From NCBI RefSeq assembly GCF_026151205.1, contig NC_087081.1, positions 2,237,246 through 2,301,245 of the forward strand: 64,000 nt of DNA, given 5' to 3'. Below the pieces are notes generated by a model. That model was not told the origin of the DNA. It saw nothing but the letters and a program-made list of their open reading frames with translations, and searched no databases. Made by a program: the position numbers and the translations under genes. Positions 9,212 to 45,983 of the stretch are shown here, one piece after another (position 1 is the first letter of the stretch; each line of letters starts with the position of its first letter). This DNA is from Bolinopsis microptera. Taxonomy: Eukaryota > Ctenophora > Tentaculata > Lobata > Bolinopsidae.

Positions 9212-9384
9212 AATTCTTCGTGTGGGATGCTTATTGCTTGTTTATAGTTTTGTACGCAGAATAACTGGATTGCTGGTGTTACCTCGACTTTATTTACTTC
9301 TAGTGCAATGATTAGTGCTGCTGTTAATGGTGCTGGCAGGCCTAGTGCTTCTAGGACTGCCGGGATTGATTTCTTCAACAACCT

Positions 9385-11254: not shown

Positions 11255-12236
11255 GAATTTCTATCATTTAAGTTTTGCTTTGATTTTTTATGGCTTCGAA
11301 TATTTTGGCACTGCTTTTCACAGCTAGACTGCTTTGCATGTCAGTTTATCGCTTGGTTTTTTGTTGTTGCTTTGTCGCTGTTATCTAAGTTTTAATTCCT
11401 ACATAACTCGGCTCAATTTCAATTCTCACAATAAAGACTTAATTTTGCATTTATAGTGCCTCTTAATTTTATTCTGAGTGTGCTTCATAATTACTTTAAT
11501 CTAATTGCTTTTATAGCACTCTTCTGATCTGCAAGTCCTGTAAATGTAACGCAGTTCTAGATTATATCTATAGCTTCTTTTTTCTGACAACTTTCGAAAT
11601 CCCATTTTTAAAATGGACAGTGTTATCGATTTCTTAATGAAAACAATAGATTCGTTAACGCAAAGTGAATAAACAAATAAAGATTCGTTACCAGCCGAAA
11701 GTACAAGTTCTGATATGCGTGCGATGGTATTATAATCACCTCATTCAAGTTGAGAGATGTGAGATTATGTGAGAAAGAACGAATGAGACCAAGAAGACAC
11801 AAACTTCCCTTTTATCATGTATGCAGTGTATGGTGAGCGATTTGAAAATATTTTGAATCTGATAAATCTCCGATTGATATGCAGTCTCCTCAATAATCAT
11901 AGCCATACTTACAGTTAAATAATTCAACTATAAAAAATCAGTTATTGGCAAAGAATGTTTGGCGTTGTTGACTAACAATAGCTATAATTAGAGATTTACA
12001 ATCTAAGTTTCGTCATTGACTCATCGGTAAATAGAACGTATTGTGATGTAAAAGTTGATATCAACATCAATATTCGTGCCATCGATACTTACAATTAATC
12101 AATGCATTCTATTTCATTGTTCTAGACATATCCTATATTTTTGATCTATATGATAACGATACAAATATATAATAGAATTATAATGCCCTAACAATATATT
12201 ATAATAATCCGCCAGCGCATGCCTTGATTTCAAGTC
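11255..12236. other. No gene recognised
   Basis: AT-rich sequence between the satellite block and the presumed 5' end of the SLC6 gene. No exon, RNA gene or element is seen. It may hold the SLC6 promoter. Confidence 0.4.
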
Positions 12237-19100: not shown

Positions 19101-21468
19101 GTGTTGCTCTACCACTTTGACTTATGTCCCTTAAGCGCTTTCAACTACCGTTCACCGAGCTTTGACTGCGGCTTTGCTAACAAGGTTTGGCCGGTGGACT
19201 GTGGAGGGTCCACAGTAGTCCCATTACCTTAGTGATGTGCGAATTAAATAAAATGTGAATTTATTCCAGCATCATCATCACGGTGGTAAACTGCTCTACA
19301 TCAATATTGGGAGGGTTTGTCATCTTCAGCATTGTAGGCTACCGAAAACACATGACAGGTGCAGACTTTGATCAGGTAAATGAAAGAGGTTAATTGATTG
19401 GTTAATTAGTTAATTGATTGGTTAATTAGTTAATGGATTAAATGATAAGCTTTATAAATTTGCAGTTATATTTAATTAAAGGAAATATGATCAGTGCCAA
19501 AATTCTCGTAATTTTTTTGATATATATAAATTTCCATTGCACGTAACCTCTGGTAGCTCAGTTGGCAGAGCGGAGGACTGTAATGGTATCCCCAAAGTAA
19601 TCCTTAGGTCACCAGTTCAAATCTGGTTCGGAGGATATTTTGATGATTTTGATTAGTAAAACGTATCTATTTTTAGCTCTTACACATATTACATGTTTTC
19701 AGCTTGGCTCAGGGCCAGGTTTGGCATTTGTAGCGATAGCTGAAGCAGTGGCCAACATGCACATCTCGCCTTTGTGGGCCGTCTTGTTTTACAGGTGAAA
19801 GTATTATTTTTTATTGACAGGGTGATTCAAATCAATATTATCCATAATGAATTGCGTAATCAATTAATATATAACTGATTATGTAATTGATATGCCAATT
19901 AACTAATTATGTAATCAGTATGTTGCTGCTACTTGGATTGGACAGTTTGTTCGGCTTGATGGAGAGTATGTTGCATCAACTCAGAGAAGAAATCCCCGTT
20001 TTGAAGAGGATTAAGAAACACGGTGTCAACGGTTAGTTCAGGTTCTTTTCACTGCTATTACTGATACTACTATCATAATTAGTTTTAACTCTAAATATCG
20101 AAAACTCATGTACAATGTATTATAGTATTATGTATATTGTATAATGTACACATATCCTTATACTATATACATTATACATTATACATCGGTCAGGGATATA
20201 CAATATATCACGAATACACCCTCCATTACTTTCAGCATGTGTGTGTTTCCTTATGTTCCTCCTGGCCCTGCCTACAGCTACTAACGGTGGACAGTACATT
20301 GTTAACCTGATGGACACCTGGGCGGTCTCCATCCCCCTGTTGTTCGTTGCTTTGGGAGAGATAGTCTCCATTGTATGGTTCTACGGTATACACAGGTTAG
20401 ATTAAACCCTGTAAATAGTGGAACACTTTATGTTATTTTAGCATCCGCTAAAAATTTTTTCGGTGGTCTAATGGCTAAATATCCTGATGATCTGAGTTCA
20501 ATTCTCACTGCTGTACCTTACACTTCCTTCTAACTGCCCTGCAGGTTCACGAGAGAAGTGAAAGAGAAGACAGGGTACCAGATAGGATGGTACTGGCAGA
20601 TATGTTGGGTGGTGCTGTCTCCCTTGGTCCTGCTCATCCTCATCGGCTTCTCGCTATTCTCCTACTTTGGGGACATGTCTTACAGTCAGTTTATTGGCTG
20701 TGCGGGGATTAATAGTGGACTGGTACGTCCTTTGGTAGATTTTTTCTAGAGTTTTATACTCACGGCCACATACTAGCTAGCCAACTGCCACGACTCTTGC
20801 TTCTATGTTACACTACGTTTTGATAAGAAGTAGAAAGTGCCAATATTTACTGCAATTATAATTAAATTTTTGAATGAATAACCTTGAAGTTAAATTCTAA
20901 CCAGAAAATGAATGTTGATAGAATTACCCAACGGGCACTTTGAATGATAAATTGCATTTACATGACAACCATTTACAGGCAAGTGAAAACGGCTCAATGT
21001 TAGAGACAAATAACGGCTCAGCTGATTATAATTTAACTGGAAACATGACCAACTTTAACTATGGTATAGACTACAAAGAGTGGCAAGTCAGTTCTAAACT
21101 GCCAACGGAGGGTATCGTAGCTGCTCTCTTTTTTCTTCTGACGTGAGTTTTTTCTTCTTTTTGATTCCTTTTTCTCCCTTTTCTCCCTTCAAGTGTATAA
21201 ATGGAATGAGTTTATTCTCCTTCAAATATAAAATGTGTCTCCGTTTAACAAGTTGTTCCTCCTCGTGTGAGTTATACATCTTCCTAAAGTTTACTGACAT
21301 TATTTCTTCTCCAAACATTGTTTCCACTTTTAACACAAATCCCCCCACAGACCACTGCTAACCCTCCCCCTGGGAGCTCTCTACGGTCACATATATCCCA
21401 ACACTACAAATGAGGAACAGGTCCAAGCTAACTTGGAATCCTGCCCGGAGGAGAACGAGGTACTCTAA
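13111..21468 (+). CDS. SLC6-family sodium- and chloride-dependent symporter
   Basis: Fifteen exons with matching phases: 13111-13332, 13453-13534, 15832-15944, 16534-16631, 16867-16959, 17160-17295, 18073-18183, 18364-18497, 19270-19375, 19703-19794, 19919-20031, 20236-20395, 20545-20722, 20979-21142, 21351-21468 (stop TAA). They give 639 residues plus an unresolved N-terminus. Family signatures: TM1 [25 protein letters not shown], the second-loop cysteines after [30 protein letters not shown]6 [24 protein letters not shown]7 [15 protein letters not shown]8 [19 protein letters not shown]6 proteins use the sodium gradient to import neurotransmitters, amino acids or osmolytes across the plasma membrane. 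TM1 has glycine where monoamine transporters have aspartate, arguing against a monoamine carrier; the substrate cannot be read further. A possible polyadenylation signal AATAAA is at 21717. Confidence 0.9.
14218..15231 (+). CDS. Membrane-anchored PhlG-like (DAPG hydrolase domain) protein
   Basis: A single-exon gene of 337 residues lying wholly inside the second intron (13535-15831) of the SLC6 gene, same strand. ATG 14218 is chosen as the first in-frame ATG. Residues 8-32 are rich in Lys/Glu. Residues 41-58 are a transmembrane helix, so the enzyme domain is probably anchored. The rest has features I associate with the 2,4-diacetylphloroglucinol hydrolase (PhlG) fold: [36 protein letters not shown] (His169, His173) and C-terminal HCREE (His315, Glu319), an HxxxE pair like the zinc ligands of PhlG. 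PhlG cleaves a C-C bond in a phloroglucinol; the substrate of this protein is unknown. Single-exon structure suggests a retrocopy or horizontal transfer; neither is proved. Confidence 0.7.
   Translation: MDSTLAMNRKKAASAAKKKEAVELKKEQEQLMEDATTTLSQYFMFAVGMVIIIYIGFCYQEMAKDIERTFFSLPDQCGEKEIKQNSSNYEYGLDSLVMLGDVQVPKAVAQESNDYEEPESWILNGDTITKVGGNYWYVAVDTDMSGISGGMLRNWFETVNCSDMYKWWHPKDHEYGVWLDHDTYEASSSLVGRQGKIHRVKERVGDKMNKLDIFFHDPCVGKDCDVLKTQGVELILSGKVHAHLTPIGRVYAGFFIHTLRVDDTGSTLHSRFTMGKDVHCLDSPNSWGCFFLDTFQWLVKKIMLSDKNAASIFIHCREEMFTLGRLLAKLNNVAARG
16005..16108. repeat. Short tandem repeat in SLC6 intron
   Basis: Three copies of a roughly 37-40 bp AT-rich unit containing TTATAATTCATAAATTGCTT and TAGTTTAATCGATAATA, in the intron between the third and fourth SLC6 exons. 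Confidence 0.8.
18811..18958. mobile_element. hAT-type MITE, 148 bp
   Basis: Inverted ends CATGGACAAAAGGATTTCGC (left) and, read inward, CACGGACAAAAGGAAATCGC (right). The element starts with CA and ends with TG. It is flanked by an exact 8-bp direct repeat TCTCAGAA (18803-18810 and 18959-18966), the target duplication length of the hAT superfamily. There is no coding capacity. It lies in the SLC6 intron between exons at 18364 and 19270. Confidence 0.85.
19547..19635 (+). tRNA. tRNA-Tyr (anticodon GTA) with a 16-nt intron
   Basis: The acceptor stem pairs CCTCTGG with TCGGAGG plus discriminator A. The D arm is GCTCAGTTGGCAGAGC. The T arm is ACCAG/TTCAAAT/CTGGT. The anticodon stem GAGGA/TCCTT encloses CTGTAA, then an intron of about 16 nt (TGGTATCCCCAAAGTA) at the canonical position after base 37. 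Eukaryotic tRNA-Tyr genes typically carry an intron here. Mature length is 73 nt before CCA. It is intronic to the SLC6 gene, on the same strand. No clear T-run terminator follows immediately. Confidence 0.92.
20462..20517 (+). pseudogene. tRNA-like relic
   Basis: A short sequence in an SLC6 intron has an A-box-like GTGGTCTAATGGC and a T-arm-like TGAGTTCAATTCTCA, but it is too short and poorly paired for a functional tRNA. It may be a decayed tRNA or SINE head. Confidence 0.35.
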
Positions 21469-32200: not shown

Positions 32201-35200
32201 ATTTCATTAATCAATACATTTCATTGATCAATACATTTCATTAATCAATACATTTCATTAATCAAAAGGTCTAAAATTGAATCATCAATTATTTAACGTA
32301 AATCAAATCCAAATATCAGGCGTAAGTACTAACGGCAGGTTCCCACAAATGAAATTTTCTGATCAGGGCTGATAATCGCTTATTAAGCGATTTAAGAGCG
32401 CTTTTTTTTTAAACCGCCGCATATAATTGATTTTTTTAGCGATTATAAGCGGTTCGTCGCAACGGGCTGAAATCTTAAAAATGGAGCTCCAATCTCCATT
32501 ATACTTTTATAGAGTTTCTATATCATGCGTATTGTGTAGAACTAGACTGTCTGTTATACAAGTATCCAAATTACTTCATGATCAAGTAACAAATCATTTG
32601 TTATGCAAAGACTCTAGTAATAGTATCGATGTACATAAATTCTCGAGTTTATAACTCTCAAAGGTTACATCTCACGTTACCACCAGCTTCAATAACCCTT
32701 TTAATTGGTCCATCAAAATAAGCAGATTGTTCTTCACTCAAATATTCGGCCCTCCCTCCCACTTGTCCTTTTCGTACAAATCCAGTCTTCGAACCTTCAG
32801 TAACCCAAGAATAGTTCAGATTGTTGCTCTTTTGCATGTGCTCGAACCCACCTTGTTTGAGAGTCTCAGCAATTATTTCCTCGTCCACAGATAGACCCAG
32901 AAATTCTACCATTTTTCTTAACTCCCTTTCAGTGTCTTCCCTCAGATCTTCATAAGTTACAAACAGGATGTTTTTTCTAGCTGACTGTTCGAGCCATTCT
33001 ATATTGTGATCTTCCCACATACCAAATTCGGCCACATCTTTTTTGGTGTAAATCTGATCAAAATACTCATTAAATGTCATCTCAGCACATATTTTACCAT
33101 AGATTTTCTCCAGAGTTTTCATGTGATGAAAGTATGACACGGCTTGGTCTTTAGGGTTTCTGGAGCAGTAAATAAAACGAGCTGTATCCCTCAACTTCTC
33201 CGGCATCCAGCTCCAGTAATCATGAGTCTTGAACACTCGGGGTCCCTTCATCTTCTCAATATCCTCCAACTTTACTGACCATGAATCCTGTAACCAAGGA
33301 ACTGTCTCAGTAATCCGGACTATGGGTCCGTTGGGGCAACCCACAAGATTGTACACCATGTTTTGGAGCCAAGTGGTGCCACTTTTGGCGAATGTGGACA
33401 CCACAATGTCGTCAGGTCGAGGTGTAAAAGCCTCAGTATGGAGAGCAGCATATCTTTCAGGTGGGCAGTTTGGAGGCACTGCAATGTTGTTATAAACTTG
33501 GTTTGGGAATATGTCGTGCTTTCTGAAAGGGGGAGGACCATTCATAACTCTTTAATTTTTGTAGTTTTACAGGTGTTGGATCGAATATGATATCAACTTA
33601 TCGAGCTTTCTGTAATATTTTAGAATGAACTTTTCAGAAATTAAATTGCAATGCAAATTTACAATCTTACCATATTAATATATAAAGCAAGACGGTATAT
33701 GTATATTATATCTTTATATACATATATAATTCGAATAATTGAAACAAATCAAATTGGCGGGCAAACGATCCGTTTCATGATATGTATAAAACAATACCAA
33801 TATATATATAATTATACAGTTTTAATACTTTCAACACTACAATATAACAAATAATTTGAGGATGACTGTGAAGGTACATTTTACCGACATTTGAAGTCAA
33901 GGCGTTGTTTTACTGACAGTTGTGGCTGACTGACAATATACATATATATGTATGTATATATATATTTCGTTGCTGTACTCCTACACATTAAAAGTTGGTG
34001 TTGATTAGATATATATATATTTTGTTGCTGTACTCCTACACATTAAAAGTCGGTGTTGATTAGATCTTCGAAATAGTTCTTTGCATCATTTTATTAAACA
34101 TCGTTATCTGAGATAAAATTGTTCTAAAAGCAACTGGAATATACACAAATCTTTAAAATAACTTACAAACTAGGAAAGGAAAACAAGTCTTAGGAATACG
34201 TACAAAACTATGTAACTCAAAACGGTACAAAACTAAAAAATACTGAGTGATAATCAAACGAAAAGAATGGCTGAGTACATCTACATCTTATCAAATCTAT
34301 TAAAGATTAGTTTCTCGGAAAAAGCTAGATTTCTCTGAATCAAGCAGTAAAAATATTAAAATAGTGATGAATATAACACGTCTCTGATAGCAATATTGTA
34401 AACTAAACACGGGTTTATAGGCTAAGATCATGTTAAATAAAATAAATAAACTAAACACTAAGCTCCAGCGGATTTAAAAAGGATGTGGTTACTATCGAGG
34501 GTGTTCATACCCCCATAACGCTCAAGGGTTTTCAATTGGGTCTGGTAGAACCCCTCTCTAGCTTCCATGGCCTTTTCCCTATCTGCTTTACTTATTTCAG
34601 GTTTAAATTCTAGAGCGTCCACTATAATAACAGAAAGGTGCGTATTAAGTGAAGAGTTATATAAGGCTACTGAACTAAAATCTAAATCATGATCAATATC
34701 TAAAAAGTGATTTACTAACTTACAACTCCTGATACCTTTCTTAATGTGGCTCTTACTCTCTTATGATTAGAAAATCTCTTAGGGAGATTAGAAGTAGTAT
34801 ATCCTACATACGACTGTTTACAAGTTCTACACTCCATTAAATAAATAAGGTTATTACTCTGACAAGTTATATATTTAGTAATAGGGAAAACTTGTTTGGA
34901 ATGGTGACTACTAAATTTGGAACAAGGGGACAGGAAACTTTGCTTACAAACATAGCATTTTCCACAGGCATGGCACCCTGCGTTGTCAGCCTCCCGAACA
35001 GCCGGCAATATTGCAGCGTCTGGTTCATATATATATATTTGAGACATTCAGTGAAACAGTAAAACACGAAATTCACATTAAGCTATCGATTGTGTAATCT
35101 TTACATGTCTCATTCTGAAAGCAAGTTTATTAAAATAACTGTTCTATGAAGTAAATTAAAAACATGACAAAAATAGATCAATACATAGACCACTCAGGAT

Positions 35201-38200
35201 CCTTAGCTGAGCGTCGACGACGCTCACCCCACGGCTAGTGGCAGAGTCGGGAATCGAACCTGGTACCTCAAGCAATACCAGGCCCGGATTAACCAACTGA
35301 GCCACTAAGCCATAGATGGGAATTTTGTGGGTACGTCTCATTCAATCATAAGATATAAACAAAAGATGCAGAGGTGAAAGTAAACAACAAAATGCAAGTG
35401 TCTGTGGAAACATTAAATATTAAAACATATCATATAAAGGTCAATTTTTTATTTCATTAAGAGCAGCTACGTTTATTAAGTCCTCCAAAATCACTGAGGG
35501 TCATAAGCTGGTTTTGCCAAAATGATTCTCTTTCTTTAGCAACTCTACTTCTATCTTCTAGGGTTAAACATTTTATAAAATCTAGCTTATCAAAAATAAT
35601 AACCTCTATCTGATCGGATAACTCATTATCAAACGTTTTTAAGGGCTCTTTGGTAAGATTATGAAACTGGTTATCGTTAAAATGACAAGAAATTTCACAA
35701 CTCCTAACCGCTTTCCTAATATGTGATTTGTGGTTCTGCCATCTGGTCTTAAAATTGTTAACTGTGCTTCCTACTGAAGCACGTCTGCAGACTTTATCCC
35801 TTACTAGATATTTTATATATATATATATATATTATGATTGGCTACTGGGACACGTCATACACACGGTTGGATTGTTAATTCGGTTGAAGTACCTTTACAT
35901 CCATTATCACCATAATCTGAACATGATTTATTAAAAATTTGCAATATAGAAAAATCTGAATAAACTGAAAATTTTAAAACTGAAAGCTGCACTCAATTGA
36001 TGGAAGGCAAAAATTTACTCATAACTAGCAAGGTAATAACTACAAATGAACAGCAGATTTATAAATCTGCTGATAAAAATTAGATAAAAGACATGGTAAC
36101 TGATAAGAGTTTGAAATTACACGTAAGCAGATAAATTGTCTAAAATTTCTGTCTCAATCAAGTTTATAGTGCATCATGAATTTAGGCTTGTTCGATCAAA
36201 GTTATATTAGGAGATATTAGGAAAATAGTTCGGTCGGCCGGAAGGGAGTCCAGACTGAGTGTGGTGTGGAGGCAGGATCACCGAGAGACTCGAGATGCTT
36301 GTGAGAGTAGTGTACTCATCTATATATATATATATATTATTAGTCAGCCACAACTATCAGTAAAACAACGCCTTGACTTCAAATGTCGGTAAAATATACC
36401 TTTACAGTCATCCTCAACTTATTTGTTATATAGTAGTGTTGAAAGTATATATATCCATAGACACAGTGTTTCGTCCTATTAGGACTCATCAGTATGGCTC
36501 AAATCATCAGGGTTGGTTTGCTGATGGCGGGTATCGATCCAGCAACCTTACGATTACTGGCCCGGAACCACGCCACTGCAAGCCACCAAGCCATTAATGA
36601 TTAGGGAATTACATAGGTACCACAGTGCTCTACAAACTCAATACGAGTTAGGAGCTTTGCATTTAAGCTGAGCGGTAGATCTATTCATTCCCTAGAGTGC
36701 TCAAGCTTAGTAAACTAGGCGAGCATATTTATCCATAGACACAGTGTTTCGTCCTATTGGGACTCATCAGTATTCAGTATGGCTCAAATCATCAGGGTTG
36801 GTTTTGCTGATGGCGGGTATCGATATATATTAATATTATATATGTATATATATATCCGTATCATTTTACTGACACCACGGCATTATCTTTAACACGACTT
36901 TCCGCAAAAACCGTAAAAGATATACAACTTAAACTTTTTGACTGGTTTAAATGCTTTAAATTTAATGGCCTTCAAATCAGCATGAAAAAATAAAAATAGG
37001 CCAAGGAATAAGAATTTGAGTGCCCAAAATATGAACCCCAAGTGGTGTCAAAAACGCGAATTAAATAGGTATTAATTATTTAAGTCTCTTGAGTCTTGAC
37101 AGTGACACCACCTTAGAGTTAGACGGGTTCCTGCTAGTAATAATTACGCAGCAGTGCTGCGGCAGCACTCAAAGTTCAAACTAAAATATCGTCTGAAGTG
37201 TTAAAAGTAAGATAAACTAAAAACTTTTATTTTTAATTGTAGTTGACGAAATGAGAGTCTCCACTCAGTGTGTTAAAACATAATTCTTTGTCGACGTTTC
37301 GGCTACATGCCTTTGTCATAAACAGGACGTACTGAAAACTTACATAGCTGCAAAGATACAATGTTAAAATAATCTATTAATACTACGAAATATAACAACA
37401 AAAATAACATCTTGAAACCCAACAAAGATCACAAATTTTTCCAAAAGAAACATAAAATATAACGGCTAAAAGAATCCACACCGCAACAAGCCGTGAACAA
37501 TTCCTCATAGTACTACAAACATTTTACCAAGATAGCTCCTTCATAAAACTGAGTAATCAAAAATTATCTAGGTTATCTAGGTTAATAAGTTCAATATTAC
37601 ATTAACTTCCAAGTATATACTCAGACAAATGAGTATTTATTTCTGGGTTTTCACGTTTTATTAGAACCGACTGCAGTCGGTTCTAATAAAACGTGAAAAC
37701 CCAGAAATAAATACTCATTTGTCTGAGTATATACTTGGAAGTTAATGTAATATTGAACTTATTAACCTAGATAACCTAGATAATTTTTGATTACTCAGTT
37801 TTATGAAGGAGCTATCTTGGTAAAATGTTTGTAGTACTATGAGGAATTGTTCACGGCTTGTTGCGGTGTGGATTCTTTTAGCCGTTATATTTTATGTTTC
37901 TTTTGGAAAAATTTGTGATCTTTGTTGGGTTTCAAGATGTTATTTTTGTTGTTATATTTCGTAGTATTAATAGATTATTTTAACATTGTATCTTTGCAGC
38001 TATGTAAGTTTTCAGTGCGTCCTGTTTATGACAAAGGCATGTAGCCGAAACGTCGACAAAGAATTATGTTTTAACACACTGAGTGGAGACTCTCATTTCG
38101 TCAACTACAATTAAAAATAAATGATTGACCCACTCATAAGAGCAAAACAAAAAACTAAAAACCTTGTAAAAAGAACAATTAAGAAAATAAATAGTTACCC

Positions 38201-40742
38201 TCACTACCAAACGTGGAAATAGAATTTTATTTTGTAACATACACATAAACTAAAAAGGAACAATCTAAACGTGATATAATTACTGAAGTCAGCCATGAAT
38301 GGCAACAAGATCGTAGGAAATAAGTTATTGGGTTTGGATGTATAAGGTGGCCAAACGTTGCTATGGTGTCAATGATAACGACTCCTTCGCTGCTCCGCAC
38401 TCACAGTTCACAAAACTCAACGTTGTAACCCAATAACATGTGTTTTACAAGTGTTCGTCATTACAGGAAAATGTAATTTGATTTCTGCGGTATCGATAAT
38501 TTTTACGACCTGCTCGGTGTGTACCAGTTCACTTTCAGATCACTCACGTATGGTTTTATTTCACCCCCAGCTGCAGATAACACTTTTAGTTTTACAGGAC
38601 TGTGACCACATGACATGAGGTTCATAATTTCAACATGTTAATGAATGATTTTTGGGGAGTTTTTATCCGTTGCTACCTAGATTCATTCACCACCAAAATT
38701 AATTTCAAGTTCCAACTCAGCTACCTTCCGGCCACTCCCATATTTTTCCCTGATGGTGCCTCTCCCTAAGATTGAACAAATTAGATGATTTTCTTTTTAG
38801 AGGATACGCCGGTAAAATCTCTAAAAAAGTGTGTTTCTAGAGCAAACGCGCAGTTTTTCTAGTAGTACTAGTAGTACCGTAGTTAAGTTTTTCCAAATTG
38901 TCCCACATTTGGCGCCCCCCCCCCCCCCCCCCCTAAAATATTGTATTAAATATAACTAAATAATTTACACAATGTCAATACGGTGCCCAGCCCCATGTCT
39001 GAGCGGCTCTCCTCAAAAAAACTTTTTCTCTTCATCGGACCAGAAAATTAAAATCAAAACACGGGTCTTATAAAATCAAAAAAATACTAAATAATGTTAA
39101 AGAGATAATATCAAATTAACTGTCGCAAAAAATGGTATAAGTATACATACAATATAATTGATTTTATTGACACATTGGTTTAAAACCAAAAAACAGAAAA
39201 TGAATACTCAAAAAAATATGCAAAAAAGACATAGCCACTAGAAATAGCCTAACCAGGCTATAACTGATCATACAAATTGAAATAGTTCTTCAACTTATCC
39301 TTAAAAGACACAATATTATCGATAACATAAAAACACAACTGTTGGGAATTTCTAATTTTTACCACATTACTTCATACTTCATGTATAATTTTGTAAAACT
39401 ATATGTTCTGATCAAGTTGCAGATCATTTGCCATGCAAAGATTCGATGTGCATAAATTCTCGAGTTTATAACTCTTAGAGGTTACACCTCACGTTACCAC
39501 CAGCTTCAATAACCCTTTTAATTGGTCCATCAAAATAAGCAGATTGCTCTTCACTCAAATATTCGGCCCACCCTCCAAACTGACCTTTTCGTACCAATCC
39601 TGTCTTCGAACCTTCAGTAGCCCAAGAGTAGTTCAGATTGCTGCTCTTTTGCATGTGCTTAAACCCACCCTGTTTGAGAGTCTCGGCAATTCTTTCCTCG
39701 TCCACAGATAGACCCAGAAATTCTACCATTTTTCTTAATTCCCTTTCAGTGTCTTCCCTCAGATCTTCATAAGTTACAAACAGGATGTTTTTTCTAGCTG
39801 ACTGTTCGAGCCATTCTATATTGTGATCTTCCCACATTCCAAATTCGGCCACATCTTTTTTGGTGTAAATCTGATCAAAATACTCATTGAATGTCATCTC
39901 AGCACATATTTTACCATAGATTTTCTCCAGAGTTTTCATGTGATGAAAGTATGACACGGCTTGGTCTTTAGGATTTCTGGAGCAGTAAATAAAACGAGCT
40001 GTATCCCTCAACTTCTCCGGCATCCAGCTCCAGTAATCATGAGTCTTGAACACTCGGGGTCCCTTCATATTCTCAATATCCTCCAACTTTACTGACCATG
40101 AATCCTGTAACCAAGGAACTGTCTCAGTAATCCGGACTATGGGTCCGTTGGGGCAACCCACAAGATTGTACACCATGTTTTGGAGCCAAGTGGTGCCACT
40201 TTTGGCGAATGTGGACACCACAATGTCGTCAGGTCGAGGTGTAAAAGCCTCAGTGTGGAGAGCAGCATATCTTTCAGGTGGGCAGAATGGAGGCACTGCA
40301 ATGTTGTTATAAACTTGGTTTGGGAATATGTCGTGCTTTCCAAAAGGGGGAGGATCATTCATAACTCTTTAATTTTTGTAGTTTTACAGATGTTGGATCG
40401 AATATGATATCAACTTATCGAGCTTTCTGTAATATTTTAGAATGAACTTTTCAGAAATTAAATTGCAATGCAAATTTACAATCTTACCATATTAATATAT
40501 AAAGCGAGACAGTATAATATGTATATATATACATAATTCGAACAATTGAAACAAATCAAATTGGCGGGCAAACGATCCGTTTCATGATATGTATAAAACA
40601 ATACCAATATATATATATTTATACAGTTTTAATACTTTCAACACTACTATATAACAAATAATTTGAGGATGACTGTAAAGGTACATTTTACCGACATTTG
40701 AATTCAAGGCGTTGTTTTACTGACAGTTGTGGCTGACTGACA

Positions 40743-40782
<40 letters not shown>

Positions 40783-43700
40783 CATGGCTGGACTTCTACA
40801 CAATAAAAAAAAGCGGTTGTGATTAGATCTTCGAAAGTCTTTGCATCGTTTATTTACATCAATTCTGAGAAATTATATCATTAAAGTAACTACAACAAAT
40901 ACGAATCATATACAATTGAGAATAAATACAAACTAAAAGCAGTGGGAAAATCTGATGAACTGAAATTTAAAAAAGAAACTGAAAGCCGTTAAAAATGTAC
41001 TCTTATCTTATCTCTTATCTAAATACTGATAACTGATTCTCGGAAAATTACTTAAAATCACAACAAAAACCTGTAAAATTTATACTTAAGTAAAAAATGT
41101 AATATGCACGTCTCTGGAATAATGGTATAACTAAATAAAATCTACAAAATATACTAAAACTAAAACTAAGCTCCGGCAGATTTAAAAAGTAGATGGTTAC
41201 TATCAAGGGTGTTCATACCCCCAAACCGTTCAAGGGTTTTCAATTGGGTCTGGTAGAACCCCTCTCTAGCTTCCATAGCCTTTTCTTTGTCTGCTTTACT
41301 AATATTAGGCTCAAATACTAAAGCGTCTACTATAATGACAGAAAGGTGCTTACTAAGTGAGGAATTATAGCAGGCTATGGTACTAAAATCTAAATCATGA
41401 TCAATATCTAAAAAATGGTTAACTAATTTACAACTTCTTATACCTTTCTTTATGTGACTCTTTTGGTTAGAGAATCTCTTAGGGAGATTTGAGGTAGTAT
41501 AACCGACATACGACTGTTTACAAGTCTTACACTCCATTAAATAAATGAGGTTATAACTCTGACAAGATATATACTTAGTTATAGGGAAAACTTGTTTAGA
41601 ATATATATATATATAATATATCCATAGACACAGTGTTTCGTCCTATTAGGACTCATCAGTATGGCTCAAATCATCAGGGTTGGTTTTGCTGATGGCGGGT
41701 ATCGATCCAGCAACGTTACGATTACTGGCCCGGAACCACGCCACTGAGCCACTAAGCCATTAATGATTAGGGAATTACATAGGTACCAGACTGCTCTACA
41801 AACTCAATACGAGTTAGGAGCTTTGCATTTAAGCTGAGCGGTATAGATCTATTCATTCCCTAGAGTGCTCAAGCTTAGTAAACTAGGCGAGCATATTTAT
41901 CCATAGACACAGTTTTTCGTTTTATTGGGACTCATCAGTATGGCTCAAATCATCAGGGTTGGTTTTGCTGATGGCGGGTATCGATATATATTATATATGT
42001 ATATATATCCGTATCATTTTACTGACACCACGGCATCAACTTTAACACGACTTCCCGCAAAAACTGTAAAAGATATACAACTTAAACTTTTTTGACTGGT
42101 TCAAATGCTTTAGATTTAATGGCCTTCAAATCAGCATGAAAAAATAAAAATAGGCCAAGGAATAAGAATTTTAGTGCCCAAAATATGGACCCCAAGTGGT
42201 GTCAAAAAAGCGAATTAAATAGGTACTAATTATTTAAGTCTCTTGAGTCTTGACAGTGACACCACTTTAGAGTTAGACGGGTTCCTGCTAGTAATAATTA
42301 CGCAGCAGTGCTGCGGCAGCACTCAAAGTTCAAACTAAAACATCGTATGAAGTGTTAAAAGTAAGATAAACTAAAAACCTTGTAAAAAGAACAATTAAAA
42401 AAATAAATCGTTACCTTCACTACCAAACGTGGAAATAGAATTGTATTTTGTAACATACACATAAACTAGAAAGGAAAAATCTAAACGTGATATAACTGGA
42501 GTCAGCCAAAGGCAACAAGATCGTAGGAAATAAGTTATTGGGTTTGGATGTATAAGGTGGCCAAACGTTGCTATGGTGTCAATGATAAAGACTCCTTCGC
42601 TGCTCCGCACTCACAGTTCACAAAACTCAACGTTGTAACCCAATAACATGTGTTTTACAAGTGTTCGTCATTATATTGTATATATATTACAGGAAAATGT
42701 AATTTGATTTCTGCGGTATCGATAATTTTTACGACCTGCTAGGTGTGTAGTGTGTACCAGTTCACTTTCAGATCACTCACGTAGGGTTTTATTTCACCCC
42801 CAGCTGCAGATAACACTTTTAGTTTTACAGGACGGTGACCACATGACAGGTTCATAATTTCAACATGTTAATGAATAATTTTTGGGGAGTCTTTATCCGT
42901 TGCTACCTAGATTCATTCACCACAAAAATTAATTTCAAGTTCCAACTCAGCTTATACCTTCCGGCCACTCCCATATTTTGCCTGTTGGCGCCTCTCCCTA
43001 AGATTGAACAAATTAGATGATTTTCTTTTTAGAGGATACGCCGGTAAAATCTCTAAAAAAGTGTGTTTCTAGAGATAAATATCAGATTAACTGTCGCAAA
43101 AAATGGTATACGTAAGTATACATACAATATAATTGATTTTATTGACACATTGGTTTAAAACCAAAAAACAAAAAATGGATACTCAAAAAAATATCCAAAA
43201 AAAGACATAGCCACTAGAAATAGCCTAACCAGGCTATAACTGATCATACAAATTGAAATAGTTCTTCAACTTACCCTTAAAAGACACAATATTATCGATA
43301 ACATAAAAACACAACTGTTGGGAATTTTTAATTTATACCACATTACTTCATACTTCATGTATAATTTTGTAAAACAATATGTTCTGATCAAGTTGCAGAT
43401 CATTTGCCATGCAAAGATTCGATGTACATAAATTCTCGAGTTTATAACTCTTAGAGGTTACACCTCACGTTACCACCAGCTTCAATAACCCTTTTAATTG
43501 GTCCATCAAAATAAGCAGATTGCTTTTCTCTCAAATATTCGGCCCACCCTCCAACCTGACCTTTTCGTACCAATCCTGTCTTCGAACCTTCAGTAGCCCA
43601 AGAGTAGTTCAGATTGCTGCTCTTTTGCATGTGCTTAAACCCACCCTGTTTGAGAGTCTCGGCAATTATTTCCTCGTCCACAGATAGACCCAGAAATTCT

Positions 43701-45983
43701 ATCATTTTTCTTAACTCCCTTTCAGTGTCTTCCCTCAGATCTTCATAAGTTACAAACAGGATGTTTTTTCTAGCTGACTGTTCGAGCCATTCTATATTGT
43801 GATCTTCCCACATACCAAATTCGGCCACATCTTTTTTGGTGTAAATCTGATCAAAATACTCATTGAATGTCATCTCAGCACATATTTTACCATAGATTTT
43901 CTCCAGAGTTTTCATGTGATGAAAGTATGACACGGCTTGGTCTTTAGGATTTCTGGAGCAGTAAATAAAACGAGCTGTATCCCTCAACTTCTCCGGCATC
44001 CAGCTCCAGTAATCATGAGTCTTGAACACTCGGGGTCCCTTCATCTTCTCAATATCCTCCAACTTTACTGACCATGAATCCTGTAACCAAGGAACTGTCT
44101 CAGTAATCCGGACTATGGGTCCGTTGGGGCAACCCACAAGATTGTACACCATGTTTTGGAGCCAAGTGGTGCCACTTTTGGCGAATGTGGACACCACAAT
44201 GTCGTCAGGTCGAGGTGTAAAAGCCTCAGTATGGAGAGCAGCACATCTTTCAGGTGGGCAGTTTGGAGGCACTGCAATGTTGTTATAAACTTGGTTTGGG
44301 AATATGTCGTGCTTTCCGAAAGGGGGAGGACCATTCATAACTCTTTAATTTTTGTAGTTTTGCAGGTGTTGGATCGAATGTCGAGCTTTCTGTAATATTT
44401 GAGAGTAACATCTTAAAGAACCTTTTAGAAATAAAATTGCAATTTGCAATACATATTTATAATACTATTTATTAACGCAGCAGTAATACGGCAGCACTAT
44501 TCAAAGTTCAAACTGAAATATCGTCAAAAGCAGAATAAACCAAGGACCTTGTAAGAAGAAAAAGTTTTTTTCTAGATATCTAAATCAGATTATGCATAAT
44601 CGGTATTATTTCTCATAAACACGATCACGTAGGAATATGCTACGCGTTTCCAAACAATAACACTGAAAACTTGATTATATGATTCAATTTGTATCCTATT
44701 TCTCCTCTTAAAGTTAATTTCACGTCCTACCCATAGAATTTATATTCCTTACATTTTTATTACAAATATATGGTACTTTTCGAAGCTGTAATTTCCGGGT
44801 GCCGGGGACGTGCCCACCAAAATTTTTCTAAATCTCTCAAAGTAGCTCAGGGTTGAGTCTACACAGTGTCGCCACTTGCCGATGCCAGTTGATGCGAGAA
44901 GACACTGATGTAAGTGGGAAGTTATGTCTAAGAAACAGCGTGTGGTTCGGGTGCCGGTTGAACGCATGTAAAAGGGAGGGTATATCCGTATTTCGCTGCT
45001 AGTGATGCAGTCCTTGGCCCGGTAGCTAAGGCTTCCCCGTTTCTTGCTCATCTGGCTCCGATGGGCTTGTGACCTCTGCGGGGGTCAAGTGCAGGATGAG
45101 GGACATGGCCGACCAGGAGAAGGTTGTTTTTGGGAGATAGAGTAGGGTTGGTGTTGTGCCTTCGCAGTTTAACTGTATCTTTACCCCCTGAGTAGTGAGT
45201 ACCGATTGAACTTCCTAGGAACGGACTTAAACGAGGGTGTCTCAAAAATCTTGCAAGGATTTTCTTTTTCGATAACTTTGTATCCATTTGTCTAAACTTC
45301 ATTCTGTAAAAAGTTATTGGTAGTTTTAAGGTTTAATGGTGACTTCTGAATGTAATTCCAAATACTTACCATCCAGAATTCAGAGAATGCAGCACTAAGA
45401 CCGAGGTATGTTAAGAACAGTGTGACTAGAGATTCCACGCTGGATGACGACAGTTTCCACTTTTCGTAAGACATTTACATTCGCTCATCAATCTCTATTT
45501 TCTGAGGATTAATTACCATTTTAATGAAAAATTAGACTCGGGTGTTGTTTTTAAATGTCCCTCGTTTTAATAGGACTTTTATTTGATCATAATAATGCTG
45601 TAAATAACTGACGATTTTTCAGGAACAGCGAAGATAGCTACAGTAGACAGAAATCAACTGCTACACCACGACGGAACAAAGCTAGATCCACCACCAGGAG
45701 GAACCGCTCATCCACTGCGGAGAGCTTTGATTCAGTTACCAACTCTGCTGACAAAAACATGGACCAAATTAGCCAATCTGCTCGCCTTGATAAACTTAAC
45801 AAGGATTGGGATTGCCATAGCGGCAAGAATGGGATTGAAATTAAAACTTTTAAATCTAGTGATGATGGTAACTACAATCAAATGAACGCAGCGGACACCC
45901 CCAGTATTGATAAAATAATGTTAAGAATTTTTACGCCCTCCGATTCAGAATTATTTAAAGAAAATGTAATTAGTGCAGTTTGA
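29262..45983 (+). CDS. Rhodopsin-like seven-transmembrane receptor (orphan)
   Basis: Eleven exons, all phases matching: 29262-29373, 29638-29759, 30112-30216, 30389-30471, 30627-30745, 30851-30967, 31318-31496, 31665-31740, 32050-32147, 45377-45465, 45623-45983. The product is 486 residues. N-glycosylation sites NRT and NGS precede TM1 (about 27-53, with the class A Asn in CAGNIF). TM2 ends MAAVDA. TM3 is about 101-127, with IRG at the DRY position. TM4 is about 148-168, TM5 about 195-219 with LVPFLLTICGN, TM6 about 258-278. TM7 (306-322) has NSVVY in place of NPxxY. The tail (about 160 residues) is rich in Ser/Arg, suited to phosphorylation. I infer a class A GPCR; the ligand is unknown and the DRY/NPxxY motifs are degenerate. 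Intron 9 is 13.2 kb and contains three antisense sulfotransferase genes. The link across that intron rests on phase agreement only. Confidence 0.7.
29905..30098. repeat. 33-bp tandem repeat in receptor intron 2
   Basis: About six units built on TATGTCCCTAAACTACATCT plus TAAATATCCTTAT, ending 13 bp before exon 3 at 30112. The repeat therefore sits where the polypyrimidine tract and branch point of that exon should be. Confidence 0.85.
32160..32262. repeat. 17-bp tandem repeat
   Basis: About six copies of TTCATTAATCAATACAT just after receptor exon 9, at the left end of the large intron. Confidence 0.8.
32658..33545 (-). CDS. Cytosolic sulfotransferase, copy 1
   Basis: Intact single-exon ORF of 295 residues, the usual length of SULT1-type enzymes. 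These transfer sulfate from PAPS to hydroxyl or amino groups of small molecules in the cytosol. The PAPS 5' loop is TFAKSGTTW (Lys54). The catalytic base is His108 in FKTHDY. The 3'-phosphate site is CSRNPKDQAVSY (Arg129, Ser137). The C-terminal PAPS motif is RKGQVGG (Arg258-Gly260). No signal peptide or membrane segment. Differences from the other copies include Arg8, QVGGRAEYL at the RKG motif, and HMQKSNN. The gene lies antisense inside intron 9 of the receptor gene. The substrate cannot be predicted. High identity with copies 2 and 3 and lack of introns suggest a retrocopied ancestor followed by tandem duplication. Confidence 0.93.
   Translation of the reverse strand: MNGPPPFRKHDIFPNQVYNNIAVPPNCPPERYAALHTEAFTPRPDDIVVSTFAKSGTTWLQNMVYNLVGCPNGPIVRITETVPWLQDSWSVKLEDIEKMKGPRVFKTHDYWSWMPEKLRDTARFIYCSRNPKDQAVSYFHHMKTLEKIYGKICAEMTFNEYFDQIYTKKDVAEFGMWEDHNIEWLEQSARKNILFVTYEDLREDTERELRKMVEFLGLSVDEEIIAETLKQGGFEHMQKSNNLNYSWVTEGSKTGFVRKGQVGGRAEYLSEEQSAYFDGPIKRVIEAGGNVRCNL
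33546..34458. repeat. Upstream flank of sulfotransferase 1, duplicated sequence
   Basis: This flank is closely similar to the flank of copy 2 (40363-41165): 5' region, TA microsatellite, then sequence leading into a Penelope fragment. A 57-bp segment with TTGCTGTACTCCTACACATT occurs twice near 33960-34070. The promoter of sulfotransferase 1 presumably lies in 33546-33700. No other gene is seen. Confidence 0.7.
34459..35025 (-). mobile_element. Penelope-like element fragment A (GIY-YIG endonuclease, frameshifted)
   Basis: Minus-strand reading gives the C-terminal endonuclease of a Penelope-like retroelement: Cys knuckle CHACGKCYVCKQ, then NLIYLMECRTCKQSYVGYTT (GIY-YIG core), RFSNHK, then after a frame change KSHIKKGIRSCKL, EAREGFYQTQL, LERYGGMNTLDS and the stop at 34459. 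The first part (34715 upward) and the second part are in different frames because of a few extra bases near 34750; copy B at 41.2 kb lacks them. The reverse transcriptase is missing; the fragment starts at a TA microsatellite. A dead remnant. Confidence 0.85.
35165..35325 (-). mobile_element. tRNA-derived SINE
   Basis: Minus strand: ATGGCTTAGTGGCTCAGTTG contains an A box (TGGCTCAGTTGG), and GGTTCGATTCC about 50 nt later is a full B box; the ends of the tRNA-like part (35232-35313) pair as GGCT.AGTGGC with GCCACTAGCC. A tail of about 65 nt with a GAGCGTC/GACGCTC hairpin follows. Its head is similar to the tRNA-like part of the ribozyme units at 36.5 and 41.7 kb. Confidence 0.75.
35457..35808 (-). 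mobile_element. Penelope-like element fragment C (second family)
   Basis: Minus-strand open frame of about 118 codons up to the stop TAA at 35457-35459. It reads as another GIY-YIG endonuclease C-terminus: VGSTVNNFKTRWQNHKSHIR, then KAVRSCEISCHF, ERESFWQNQLMTL and FGGLN. The sequence differs clearly from fragments A and B, so it comes from a different Penelope lineage. It is truncated at a TA microsatellite. No counterpart is seen in the copy 2 segment. Confidence 0.8.
35809..36454. other. No gene recognised
   Basis: AT-rich sequence between Penelope fragment C and the ribozyme unit. It includes TA microsatellites and a short palindrome (CAGCAGATTTATAAATCTGC, near 36050). The segment GTTGTGGCTGACT near 33905 recurs here inverted (near 36340), so part of the 33.9-kb flank is repeated in reverse at 36330-36450. 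Confidence 0.5.
36455..36497 (-). ncRNA. Hammerhead ribozyme HHR1 (type I), apparently intact
   Basis: Read on the minus strand: stem I CCATA, then core CTGATGAG, stem II GTCC/loop TAATA/GGAC, core GAAA, stem III ACA/loop CTG/TGT, cleavage triplet GTC, then stem I return strand TATGG. All invariant core positions are present (CUGAUGA, GAAA, C17) and stem I pairs perfectly over 5 bp. Predicted self-cleavage is between 36460 and 36459. Very short stem III is typical of Penelope and retrozyme hammerheads, which often work as dimers. Confidence 0.88.
36733..36782 (-). ncRNA. Hammerhead ribozyme HHR2, stem I altered by a 7-nt duplication
   Basis: Same core as HHR1 (CTGATGAG, stem II GTCC/GGAC, GAAA, GTC) but the 5' strand carries a duplication of ATACTGA, which separates CCATA from the core. 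Stem I can still form about 3 bp (ATA/TAT), so activity is probably weakened. The predicted cleavage site at 36738/36737 is 278 nt from that of HHR1. Confidence 0.75.
36850..37140. repeat. Dispersed about 290-bp repeat (family D), copy 1
   Basis: Starts near TATCCGTATCATTTTACTGA and ends near GGGTTCCTGCTAGT. It is also at about 42000-42300 (same duplicated segment) and about 46400-46690 (independent copy). ACTGACACCA near one end and TGACACCA in reverse near the other suggest imperfect terminal inverted repeats. Non-coding; probably a MITE-like element. Confidence 0.65.
37214..38162. mobile_element. Palindromic insertion with 11-bp target-site duplication
   Basis: 37226-38121 is a near-perfect palindrome (arms about 448 bp, axis at 37673/37674 in CCGACTGCAGTCGG, at least one mismatch noted). 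It is followed by about 30 unpaired bases. The insertion is flanked by AAACTAAAAAC at 37214-37224 and 38152-38162. The paralogous segment at 42368-42378 has this 11-mer once and no insert: an empty site. Each arm contains GGCATGTAGCCGAAACGTCG, resembling the 3' half of a hammerhead (stem II, GAAA, ACGTC) with a decayed 5' core. I infer two head-to-head copies of a retroelement end; no coding sequence is seen. Confidence 0.85.
38163..39474. repeat. Duplicated intergenic segment 3' of sulfotransferase 2
   Basis: Closely similar to 42379-43450 beside copy 3, apart from small indels. A C-run of about 19 bases lies near 38916. Sequence 38940-39110 has no counterpart in the copy 3 segment. No gene is seen; annotated as part of the tandem duplication. 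Confidence 0.75.
39475..40362 (-). CDS. Cytosolic sulfotransferase, copy 2
   Basis: Intact single-exon ORF of 295 residues, nearly identical to copies 1 and 3. All PAPS-binding and catalytic motifs are kept: KSGTTW (Lys54), His108, CSRNPKD with Ser137, RKG at 258-260. Copy-specific changes include Asp3, Phe26 (Asn in the others), Asn98, RIAETL for IIAETL and QFGGWAEYL after RKG. Changes sit near the N-terminus and the RKG loop and leave the catalytic residues alone. The gene starts 6,817 bp from copy 1 and 3,976 bp from copy 3. Antisense to, and inside, the receptor gene intron. Cytosolic PAPS-dependent sulfation is inferred from the family; the acceptor is unknown. Confidence 0.93.
   Translation of the reverse strand: MNDPPPFGKHDIFPNQVYNNIAVPPFCPPERYAALHTEAFTPRPDDIVVSTFAKSGTTWLQNMVYNLVGCPNGPIVRITETVPWLQDSWSVKLEDIENMKGPRVFKTHDYWSWMPEKLRDTARFIYCSRNPKDQAVSYFHHMKTLEKIYGKICAEMTFNEYFDQIYTKKDVAEFGMWEDHNIEWLEQSARKNILFVTYEDLREDTERELRKMVEFLGLSVDEERIAETLKQGGFKHMQKSSNLNYSWATEGSKTGLVRKGQFGGWAEYLSEEQSAYFDGPIKRVIEAGGNVRCNL
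40363..41165. repeat. Upstream flank of sulfotransferase 2, duplicated sequence
   Basis: Same order as 33546-34458: promoter region, then a (TA)n microsatellite at about 40745-40782, then AT-rich sequence leading to a Penelope fragment. No separate gene is seen. Confidence 0.7.
41166..41600 (-). mobile_element. Penelope-like element fragment B (GIY-YIG endonuclease, open frame)
   Basis: Homologous to fragment A but without the frameshift. The open frame 41537-41166 reads MECKTCKQSYVGYTTSNLPK, RFSNQKSHIKK, EAREGFYQTQL, FGGMNTLDS to the stop. The sequence continues upstream in the same frame to a TA microsatellite near 41600, where the element is cut off. The reverse transcriptase domain is absent. 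Only about 20 bp separate it from ribozyme HHR3, upstream in the same sense, so the order is pLTR-like unit then endonuclease. Confidence 0.85.
41622..41664 (-). ncRNA. Hammerhead ribozyme HHR3 (type I), apparently intact
   Basis: Identical in core and stems to HHR1: CCATA/TATGG stem I, CTGATGAG, stem II GTCC/GGAC with TAATA loop, GAAA, three-pair stem III, GTC. Predicted cleavage is between 41627 and 41626. Confidence 0.88.
41901..41943 (-). pseudogene. Hammerhead ribozyme HHR4, decayed
   Basis: CTGATGAG, GAAA and stem I are kept, but stem II is broken (GTCC against AAAC, with the 3' strand GGAC lost) and stem III loses pairs (AAC for CAC). It is probably inactive. Position and orientation match HHR2 of segment 1. 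Confidence 0.75.
42000..42300. repeat. Dispersed repeat family D, copy 2
   Basis: Second copy of the repeat at 36850-37140, in the same place relative to the ribozyme unit, so it was carried along by segment duplication. Confidence 0.65.
42301..43450. repeat. Duplicated intergenic segment 3' of sulfotransferase 3
   Basis: Parallels 37140-37224 plus 38152-39474 without the palindromic insertion. The 11-mer AAACTAAAAAC at 42368-42378 marks the empty site. No gene is seen. Confidence 0.75.
43451..44338 (-). CDS. Cytosolic sulfotransferase, copy 3
   Basis: Intact single-exon ORF of 295 residues. Same motifs as the other copies (Lys54 loop, His108, Arg129/Ser137, RKG 258-260). Copy-specific residues include Cys32 (Tyr in the others), KMIEFLGLS and YLREKQ near the C-terminus; it has Asn26 and QVGGWAEYL. 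It shares some states with copy 1 and others with copy 2, as expected after unequal crossing-over or gene conversion. Its upstream flank stays alike only to about 44380, so the duplication unit ends there. Antisense inside receptor intron 9. Confidence 0.93.
   Translation of the reverse strand: MNGPPPFGKHDIFPNQVYNNIAVPPNCPPERCAALHTEAFTPRPDDIVVSTFAKSGTTWLQNMVYNLVGCPNGPIVRITETVPWLQDSWSVKLEDIEKMKGPRVFKTHDYWSWMPEKLRDTARFIYCSRNPKDQAVSYFHHMKTLEKIYGKICAEMTFNEYFDQIYTKKDVAEFGMWEDHNIEWLEQSARKNILFVTYEDLREDTERELRKMIEFLGLSVDEEIIAETLKQGGFKHMQKSSNLNYSWATEGSKTGLVRKGQVGGWAEYLREKQSAYFDGPIKRVIEAGGNVRCNL
44400..45376. other. Intron remainder with an unclassified higher-GC insert
   Basis: 44470-44560 repeats the GCAGCAGT/CGGCAGCACT sequence that follows family D elsewhere. 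44790-45250 is clearly richer in G and C than its surroundings and has the look of an inserted element. I could not identify domains in any frame or terminal repeats. It ends about 125 bp before receptor exon 10. Confidence 0.4.

Follow-up and report, generated by a model that had tools for sequence, protein, structure and literature searches.

Several retroelements that carry hammerhead ribozymes have been described, and they provide the frame for the locus analyzed here. Metazoan non-long terminal repeat (non-LTR) retrozymes consist of tandem units of 170-400 nt with type I hammerheads and a GC content below 50%, contain no coding gene, and occur in genomes that also harbor Penelope-like elements (PLEs; PMC7229834). 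Plant LTR retrozymes also have a hammerhead-bounded unit and a proposed circular RNA intermediate, but differ in their type III hammerheads, LTRs with a primer-binding site and polypurine tract, and circles of 600-800 nt (PMC7229834, PMC7761336). In the schistosome elements Sm-alpha and Sj-alpha, which resemble short interspersed nuclear elements (SINEs), a hammerhead is joined to a tRNA-like head (PMC2770079), while PLEs such as Anolis Poseidon (PMC11167929) and Adineta Penelope (PMC3846280) use AT-rich targets, start reverse transcription internally, and leave partial tandems with 5' truncation. As to how metazoan retrozymes move, PLEs were named a strong candidate (Cervera and de la Pena 2020, PMC7229834), a 2020 review noted that retrozymes seem to lack a promoter and any motif revealing a partner (PMC7761336), and a 2024 review named long interspersed nuclear elements (LINEs) or PLEs as movers (PMC11722881). 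Here, we analyzed a 64,000-nt stretch of the ctenophore Bolinopsis microptera (NC_087081.1), referred to as the window, whose positions serve as coordinates unless a contig is named. The window carries two copies of a retrozyme, both on the minus strand, and the evidence supports assigning them to the metazoan non-LTR group, with RNA activity presumed from the family. They belong to a known family, and the junctions and PLE evidence described below go past what had been noticed at this locus before.

An original prediction, made from the letters of the window alone, had placed two type I hammerheads at the borders of a 278-nt unit on the minus strand and proposed a covariance-model search and a genome-wide search as checks. 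In agreement with this, Rfam model RF00163 (Hammerhead_1), but not Hammerhead_3, matched both sites above its gathering score of 34. The 3'-terminal hammerhead ribozyme (HHR1, 36453-36499) scored 35.9 bits (E 2.6e-5) with predicted cleavage at 36460/36459, and the second (HHR2, 36735-36785) scored 34.4 bits at 36735-36773 (E 8.2e-5) with predicted cleavage at 36738/36737, giving a unit (36460-36737, locus L007) of exactly the size first proposed. Both unit ends have the core motifs CTGATGAG, GAAA, and GTC, and HHR1 shows by eye stems of 5 bp (CCAUA/UAUGG) and 4 bp (GUCC/GGAC) together with a 3-bp stem III. In HHR2, 7 nt are duplicated in tandem within the 5' arm of stem I (CATACTGA-ATACTGA), so that only three stem I pairs remain contiguous. 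The extent originally given, 36455-36782, falls short of the element, which reaches about 36824-36829, where a partial, 5'-truncated second unit (36738-36829, 5' breakpoint near unit position 198) ends. Cleavage at both sites would release a 278-nt RNA that could circularize.

Whether the hammerheads belong to the pseudo-LTR of a PLE or to a retrozyme had been left open, and the genome-wide evidence favors the latter, because the units are mostly 276-280 bp long, form dimers to approximately six-mers, and contain no coding gene. Unit size (273-308 nt), GC content (0.42-0.47), type I hammerhead, tandem layout, and the lack of a coding gene all fit the published metazoan non-LTR retrozymes, and PLEs are present in the genome. 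Type I hammerheads are frequent in PLEs (PMC7229834, PMC7761336) and PLE pieces adjoin some retrozyme copies, as would be expected if the units were pseudo-LTRs. However, unlike PLEs, the retrozyme arrays have no long open reading frame (ORF) inside and their hammerheads look canonical, the longest listed ORF over the window element is 74 amino acids, with no long ORF within the unit, and Rfam found no hammerhead at E ≤ 1 in three searched PLE loci (L107, L068, and L069). The pseudo-LTR explanation is thus highly improbable and was rejected.

Searches covered the 264.7-Mb genome, including 13 contigs of 15-26 Mb; the COX1 model PF00115 matched nowhere in it. At least 69 matches to RF00163 were found at E ≤ 0.001, 67 of them above the cut-off, a lower bound since the scoring covered 74 of 35,411 candidates. 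With no more than one mismatch, the 18-base 3' arm of the hammerhead occurred at 94 places compared to none for its reversed control, and these two counts together argue against chance occurrence. A DNA query comprising the unit and its partial neighbor gave 60 matches. Hence, the unit recurs at many loci and is not confined to a duplicated segment, the outcome that had been named as speaking against the original prediction. Copy number is nevertheless far lower than in coral or mussel retrozymes (PMC7229834), and likewise far lower than that of Sm-alpha and Sj-alpha (PMC2770079). From 18 of 21 loci tried, we extracted 32 units, 26 of which measured 276-280 nt. Arrays contained as many as seven (L002), six (L013), or five (L022) hammerhead ends, and many loci comprised less than one unit. 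One array is split inside a hammerhead by a sequence of approximately 3 kb with inverted ends (TAGTACAGACAG...CTGTCTGTACTA; L021 end to L017 start, C1 ~12166205-12169173), flanked by a possible 3-bp duplication, TGT.

The retrozyme has a largely constant 3' end that usually abuts AT microsatellites. Both ends were located in 56 loci from the 13 large contigs and one small contig, near-duplicates included (the segmental pairs L030/L031, L042/L043, L044/L052, L004/L053, and L023/L064). In 49 of these, the 3' end lay directly after TATGGAT or a one-base variant, 7 nt beyond the cleavage site. Two loci ended approximately 2 nt beyond that site (L055 and L060), one was cut by an inserted element (L021), and four ended elsewhere (L056, L058, L059, and L061). 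Among distinct loci matched by the DNA query, 36 of 41 had the fixed end. By comparison, 5' breakpoints were scattered over unit positions 1 to 275, and aligned spans ranged from 58 to 1816 nt, a few target bases included. Of 54 loci scored, 34 had at least 60% alternating A/T in the 20 nt past the 3' end, which makes 34 of the 49 fixed-end loci; the 5' flank reached this level at 33 of 56, against a background of 0.54% of window positions. Genome-wide, the hammerhead 3' arm followed by 12 A/T was found at 45 places (≤1 mismatch over the 30-base pattern). Ends that preceded another end by one or two units were dropped, which left 67 array-terminal hammerhead ends, 44 of them followed by 12 A/T; in the window, 0.9% of 12-mers consist entirely of A/T and 5.2% have at least 11 of 12. 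In the window copy, the short AT stretch at the 3' junction (36444-36452) directly follows TATGGAT and an AT-rich stretch (36824-36857) forms the 5' junction. Two retrozymes on C9 (L041) face each other approximately 70 bp apart, each with its own AT stretch and with a repeat piece between them.

Several observations weigh against the mobilization route proposed below. Many loci were found by their hammerhead, so sampling favored the fixed-end count, and among loci found through the DNA query alone (L056-L064) only five of nine had the fixed 3' end. The 12-A/T test failed at 23 of the 67 array-terminal ends. AT microsatellites also border other dispersed repeats in the genome, so that a hotspot open to many elements could account for the AT targets in common. 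The junctions leave little room for plain satellite DNA spread by unequal crossing-over. Arrays with up to seven hammerhead ends would suit a satellite, yet most of the 56 loci share a common 3' end, differ in their 5' ends, and have mostly different flanks, and AT-rich spacer exists elsewhere with no retrozyme in it. On this junction pattern, a satellite origin is scarcely credible and was rejected.

The flanks further suggest what the AT stretch is. Several retrozymes have common flanks, for example ...AGCGTCTAT[AT]CTTCACGACAATCTG..., and a pattern search for a dispersed repeat of the form AGCGTCTAT[spacer]CTTCACGACAATCTG with a 5- to 35-nt spacer, which leaves no room for a unit, returned 326 genome places compared to 0 for the reversed control. 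Among the matches listed, the spacers were AT-rich, though not all of them pure AT. By eye, the same repeat lies on both sides of retrozymes L002, L026, L032, L037, and L047. Since AT-rich spacers occur free of the retrozyme and the repeat brackets retrozymes on both sides, the AT stretch is a target and not only a tail; these sequence comparisons indicate that the AT target pre-exists retrozyme insertion. If the element produced the AT stretch as its own tail, as some SINEs do, the AT after the 3' end in most copies would be explained, but not the AT before the 5' end in 33 of 56 loci or the 326 host repeats with a retrozyme-free AT-rich spacer; we consider a self-made tail improbable and rejected it on these two observations. 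Retrozymes and at least one PLE (L092) sit in or beside copies of this dispersed repeat. In the open-access literature searched, we found no description of an AT-microsatellite target or of a PLE-shared junction for metazoan retrozymes, and neither the fixed AT-microsatellite 3' junction nor the tRNA-like head described below is reported in the text of PMC7229834 examined.

The junctions of PLEs were compared with those of the retrozyme. Pfam PF01541 (GIY-YIG) had 147 genome matches, many in ORFs of 600-1040 amino acids; one of them (L065) is presumably an SLX1-type host gene. Locus L107 encodes an intact 917-amino-acid ORF with a GIY-YIG match near its C terminus (Pfam) and, at approximately residue 502, an RDD motif. 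Directly upstream lies an apparently 5'-truncated copy, 99.7% identical over 1,087 bp, forming a partial tandem. We assign L107-type elements to the PLEs with fair, not full, confidence, because neither Pfam nor a PDB sequence search confirmed a reverse transcriptase (RT) domain in the ORF, which also counts against a PLE as the mover. Downstream of the domain, 18 of 20 GIY-YIG loci taken in list order end in GTGTAGAAGTCCAGCCATGAA, the junction being CCATGAA/(AT)n, and continue into AT repeats, while L082 and L086 lack the motif. Genome-wide, this PLE 3' end occurred at 126 places, 120 of which had 12 A/T behind it (≤1 mismatch each). A second PLE subfamily ends GTACAGC(A/T)ACAAA in AT (L069 and L106). 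Of the 40 matches listed to one 101-bp PLE stretch approximately 600 bp upstream of the GIY-YIG domain, 31 were 100% identical, a sign that the genome holds many near-identical PLE copies. On C2, two PLE pairs are arranged tail to tail with a short AT stretch in between (17191803/17191845 and 18436749/18436809).

PLE sequence was found within approximately 150 bp of 11 of the 56 retrozyme loci in a comparison of flanks of unequal length (L008, L014, L023, L035, L039, L042, L043, L048, L057, L062, and L064; nine loci once the duplicates L043 and L064 are dropped), and at a distance of 1.4 kb from the window retrozyme, L007. At least three retrozyme-PLE end pairs lay within 1.5 kb of each other, a count resting on 100 of 126 and 100 of 120 PLE places, compared to approximately 0.1 expected for independent positions; a common preference for AT repeats would suffice as the cause of this excess. 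At L062 (C9:15567113), PLE pieces enclose a retrozyme fragment almost seamlessly, which may reflect a chimeric or nested insertion. Two further GIY-YIG groups (L095-L105, 11 of 12 loci compared) showed no AT run or 3' end within 1.2 kb. They have long ORFs and, unlike L107, copies that remain alike for at least 1.2 kb beyond the GIY-YIG domain; the pairwise comparison stayed inside the element, so these loci neither support nor oppose a role for PLEs. We take them to be possible PLEs with permuted domains.

Biochemically, the purified PLE Poseidon of Anolis cleaves AT-rich DNA, and its reverse transcription begins at an internal position of the RNA that has no homology to the target (PMC11167929). 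Penelope elements have been reported to prefer simple AT-rich targets (PMC3846280). The retrozyme resembles these elements in its AT-rich target, its internal start, and its 5'-truncated partial tandems. Movement by another AT-using retroelement, such as a LINE, or opportunistic insertion at AT hotspots would also place copies beside AT repeats. AT microsatellites bordering other repeats fit such an origin, and no clear sequence beyond AT is common to the 3' ends of PLE and retrozyme, which counts against the PLE as the mover. Conversely, the PLE is the one autonomous-looking element found with an equally fixed AT 3' end (120 of 126 places), although no LINE survey was made, and 11 of 56 retrozyme loci have it in their close vicinity. 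We regard a LINE or a hotspot as unlikely; the probable route is target-primed reverse transcription by a PLE with ligated retrozyme RNA as the template.

Part of the unit (36526-36587 in the window) resembles a tRNA and includes possible A and B boxes, judged against their consensus sequences. It aligns in the sense orientation to L108, a tRNA-Asn gene that ARAGORN recognized in this genome. The L007 unit scored 38, a value reached by 0 of 500 shuffles, and none of 500 single-base shuffles reached the score in four of six units, with 2 and 9 of 500 doing so in the others; antisense scores were low. A control tRNA from the window scored lower than tRNA-Asn in each unit and its score was reached by 4 to 72 shuffles in five of them, yet by 0 of 500 in L024. 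Consequently, tRNA-likeness is better supported than tRNA-Asn as its source. Sm-alpha and Sj-alpha offer a precedent for joining a hammerhead to such a head, although the head of Sm-alpha is tRNA-Gln-related in S. mansoni (PMC2770079), whereas tRNA-Asn is the nearer of the two tRNAs tested here. The B box, by its consensus, is intact in L024, L044, L052, and L063 and changed in most other units. Rfam gave no tRNA match in the retrozyme at E ≤ 5 or at E ≤ 10, and ARAGORN reported no tRNA in the window, though Rfam finds one at 19547-19635; the tRNA-like assignment is accordingly based on the alignment and on the A- and B-box consensus. In the sense strand, 27 of 32 units lack TTTT, which says little because TTTT is also missing from 29% of shuffled units. 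No region of the unit varies more than the tRNA-like part (15.8% of sites changed compared to 7.1% in the rest), and this divergence, together with the missing Rfam match, casts doubt on a working promoter. The head may, weakly, act as an RNA polymerase III promoter.

Hammerhead sites, by comparison, were changed at 2.9% compared to 7.1% in the rest of the unit (one unit from each of 17 loci), a difference we do not take as evidence of conservation because the hammerhead served to find many of the loci and all of the unit borders. The stem II loop is UAAUA, and on visual inspection internal hammerheads have a 9-nt bulge and, outside it, a GAG/CUC helix; computed duplex energies do not address the tertiary contact between the stem I and stem II loops. 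In stem III, the arm ACACUGUGU matches its own reverse complement at 8 of 9 positions. Predicted circular folds of a typical unit (z -3.9) and of the window unit (z -5.1) were more stable than their shuffles, while that of the diverged L063 unit was not (z 0.1), an indicative comparison at 15 shuffles per unit.

The PLE-driven route would run as follows. Arrays may be transcribed, perhaps by RNA polymerase III from the tRNA-like head or by read-through, and the hammerheads, whose core motifs are present and whose activity is presumed from the family, would cut the transcript to monomers of approximately 278 nt, which a host ligase would close into circles, as presumed from the family. The RT and GIY-YIG endonuclease of a resident PLE would nick an AT microsatellite, the target that the two elements are observed to share, and prime reverse transcription within the RNA just after UAUGGAU, 7 nt beyond the ligation point, where the fixed 3' junction lies. 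The cDNA would run upstream over the ligated junction, stop at random, and possibly lap the circle, yielding the 5'-truncated fragments, partial dimers, and longer arrays that are observed, a length pattern that fits either a circle or an uncleaved multimer. On a cleaved linear monomer, the start point would lie approximately 7 nt from the 5' end, so that only approximately 7 nt could be copied from there. Inserts cross the cleavage site. Hence, the DNA junctions alone argue against a self-cleaved linear monomer as template, and a ligated circle or an uncleaved multimer is required.

Identity within and between arrays bears on that choice. Units were more alike within arrays (median 95.3%, 33 pairs) than between arrays or loci (median 90.1%, 463 pairs), and those of L022 were 99.6-100% identical to each other, as a lapping circle would give; a homogeneous source array would equally produce high within-array identity. 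An uncleaved multimeric transcript of genomic arrays also explains inserts that cross the cleavage site, and a PLE whose hammerhead was mutated remained capable of insertion in vitro (PMC11167929). In the single array of L013 (C6:1742037-1743505), units of two subtypes follow one another as A A B B A, a pattern suggestive of a template switch or of subsequent exchange. Among the six units of L002, identity is 90.7-95.7% (4-9% different), yet one of them reaches 96.8% with a unit at another locus; the two units of L056 share 73.4% identity. In two of five multi-unit arrays (L002 and L056), the closest relative of a unit thus sits elsewhere. Some single-nucleotide differences among the L002 and L056 units may stem from the assembly. 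These three arrays are unlike the product of one faithfully copied circle and count against it. We hold a multimeric template to be possible though somewhat doubtful, and only tentatively propose the fuller scheme, in which a PLE would use the circle, ligated over the hammerhead site, at AT microsatellites from a fixed start while the tRNA-like head drives an RNA polymerase III precursor. If that scheme is true, the hammerhead sets both ends of the circle and adjoins the insertion start point, and the junctions constitute genomic evidence on how animal retrozymes move. To the published candidate partner, they add by inference a genomic PLE-retrozyme link. Because the 3' junction is fixed, lies in a simple target, and is common to a PLE with many near-identical copies, a direct test of mobilization could be set up from a single purified enzyme, a circular RNA, and an AT-repeat DNA.

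The second window copy, a partial dimer 95% identical to the first, lies at 41627-41991 (DNA query match C10:2278872-2279236). Its type I hammerhead (41620-41666, RF00163 35.9 bits) was absent from the original prediction, and a degenerate upstream hammerhead (AATAAAACGAAAAACTG, 41899-41945) has lost stem II and is not listed by Rfam. An AT microsatellite (41603-41619) separates this copy from a 5'-truncated PLE copy directly behind it (40772-41602, minus strand), which retains the GIY-YIG end and 3' untranslated region, is 99% identical to L107, and has its 3' end motif at C10:2278026. A further 5'-truncated PLE fragment (34006-35027, minus strand), of the second subfamily, is 98% identical to L069. 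Both retrozyme copies lie inside a tandem sulfotransferase region and share the same 5' flank, so they probably descend from one insertion that was duplicated together with the sulfotransferase cassette. Three tandem sulfotransferase ORFs of 295 amino acids each occupy 32658-33545, 39475-40362, and 43451-44338, the first confirmed by Pfam and the other two by near-identical translation. A repeat of approximately 130 bp with AT-repeat borders occurs in both orientations near the retrozymes (36318-36448, 33825-33952, and 40632-40762), and pieces of it also border retrozymes and PLEs at other loci.

Between the two copies, 37221-38126 forms a near-perfect 906-bp palindrome with 450 of 453 arm positions complementary and no spacer. 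The palindrome is flanked by a short direct repeat (AAACTAAAAAC) and is missing from the duplicate segment near 42368-42381; it is either a foldback-type insertion or an assembly artifact. Elsewhere in the window, long minisatellites with several open frames span 9187-11395 and 57622-59740, and an ORF at 14122-15231 carries a DAPG hydrolase PhiG domain (Pfam E 2.3e-21).

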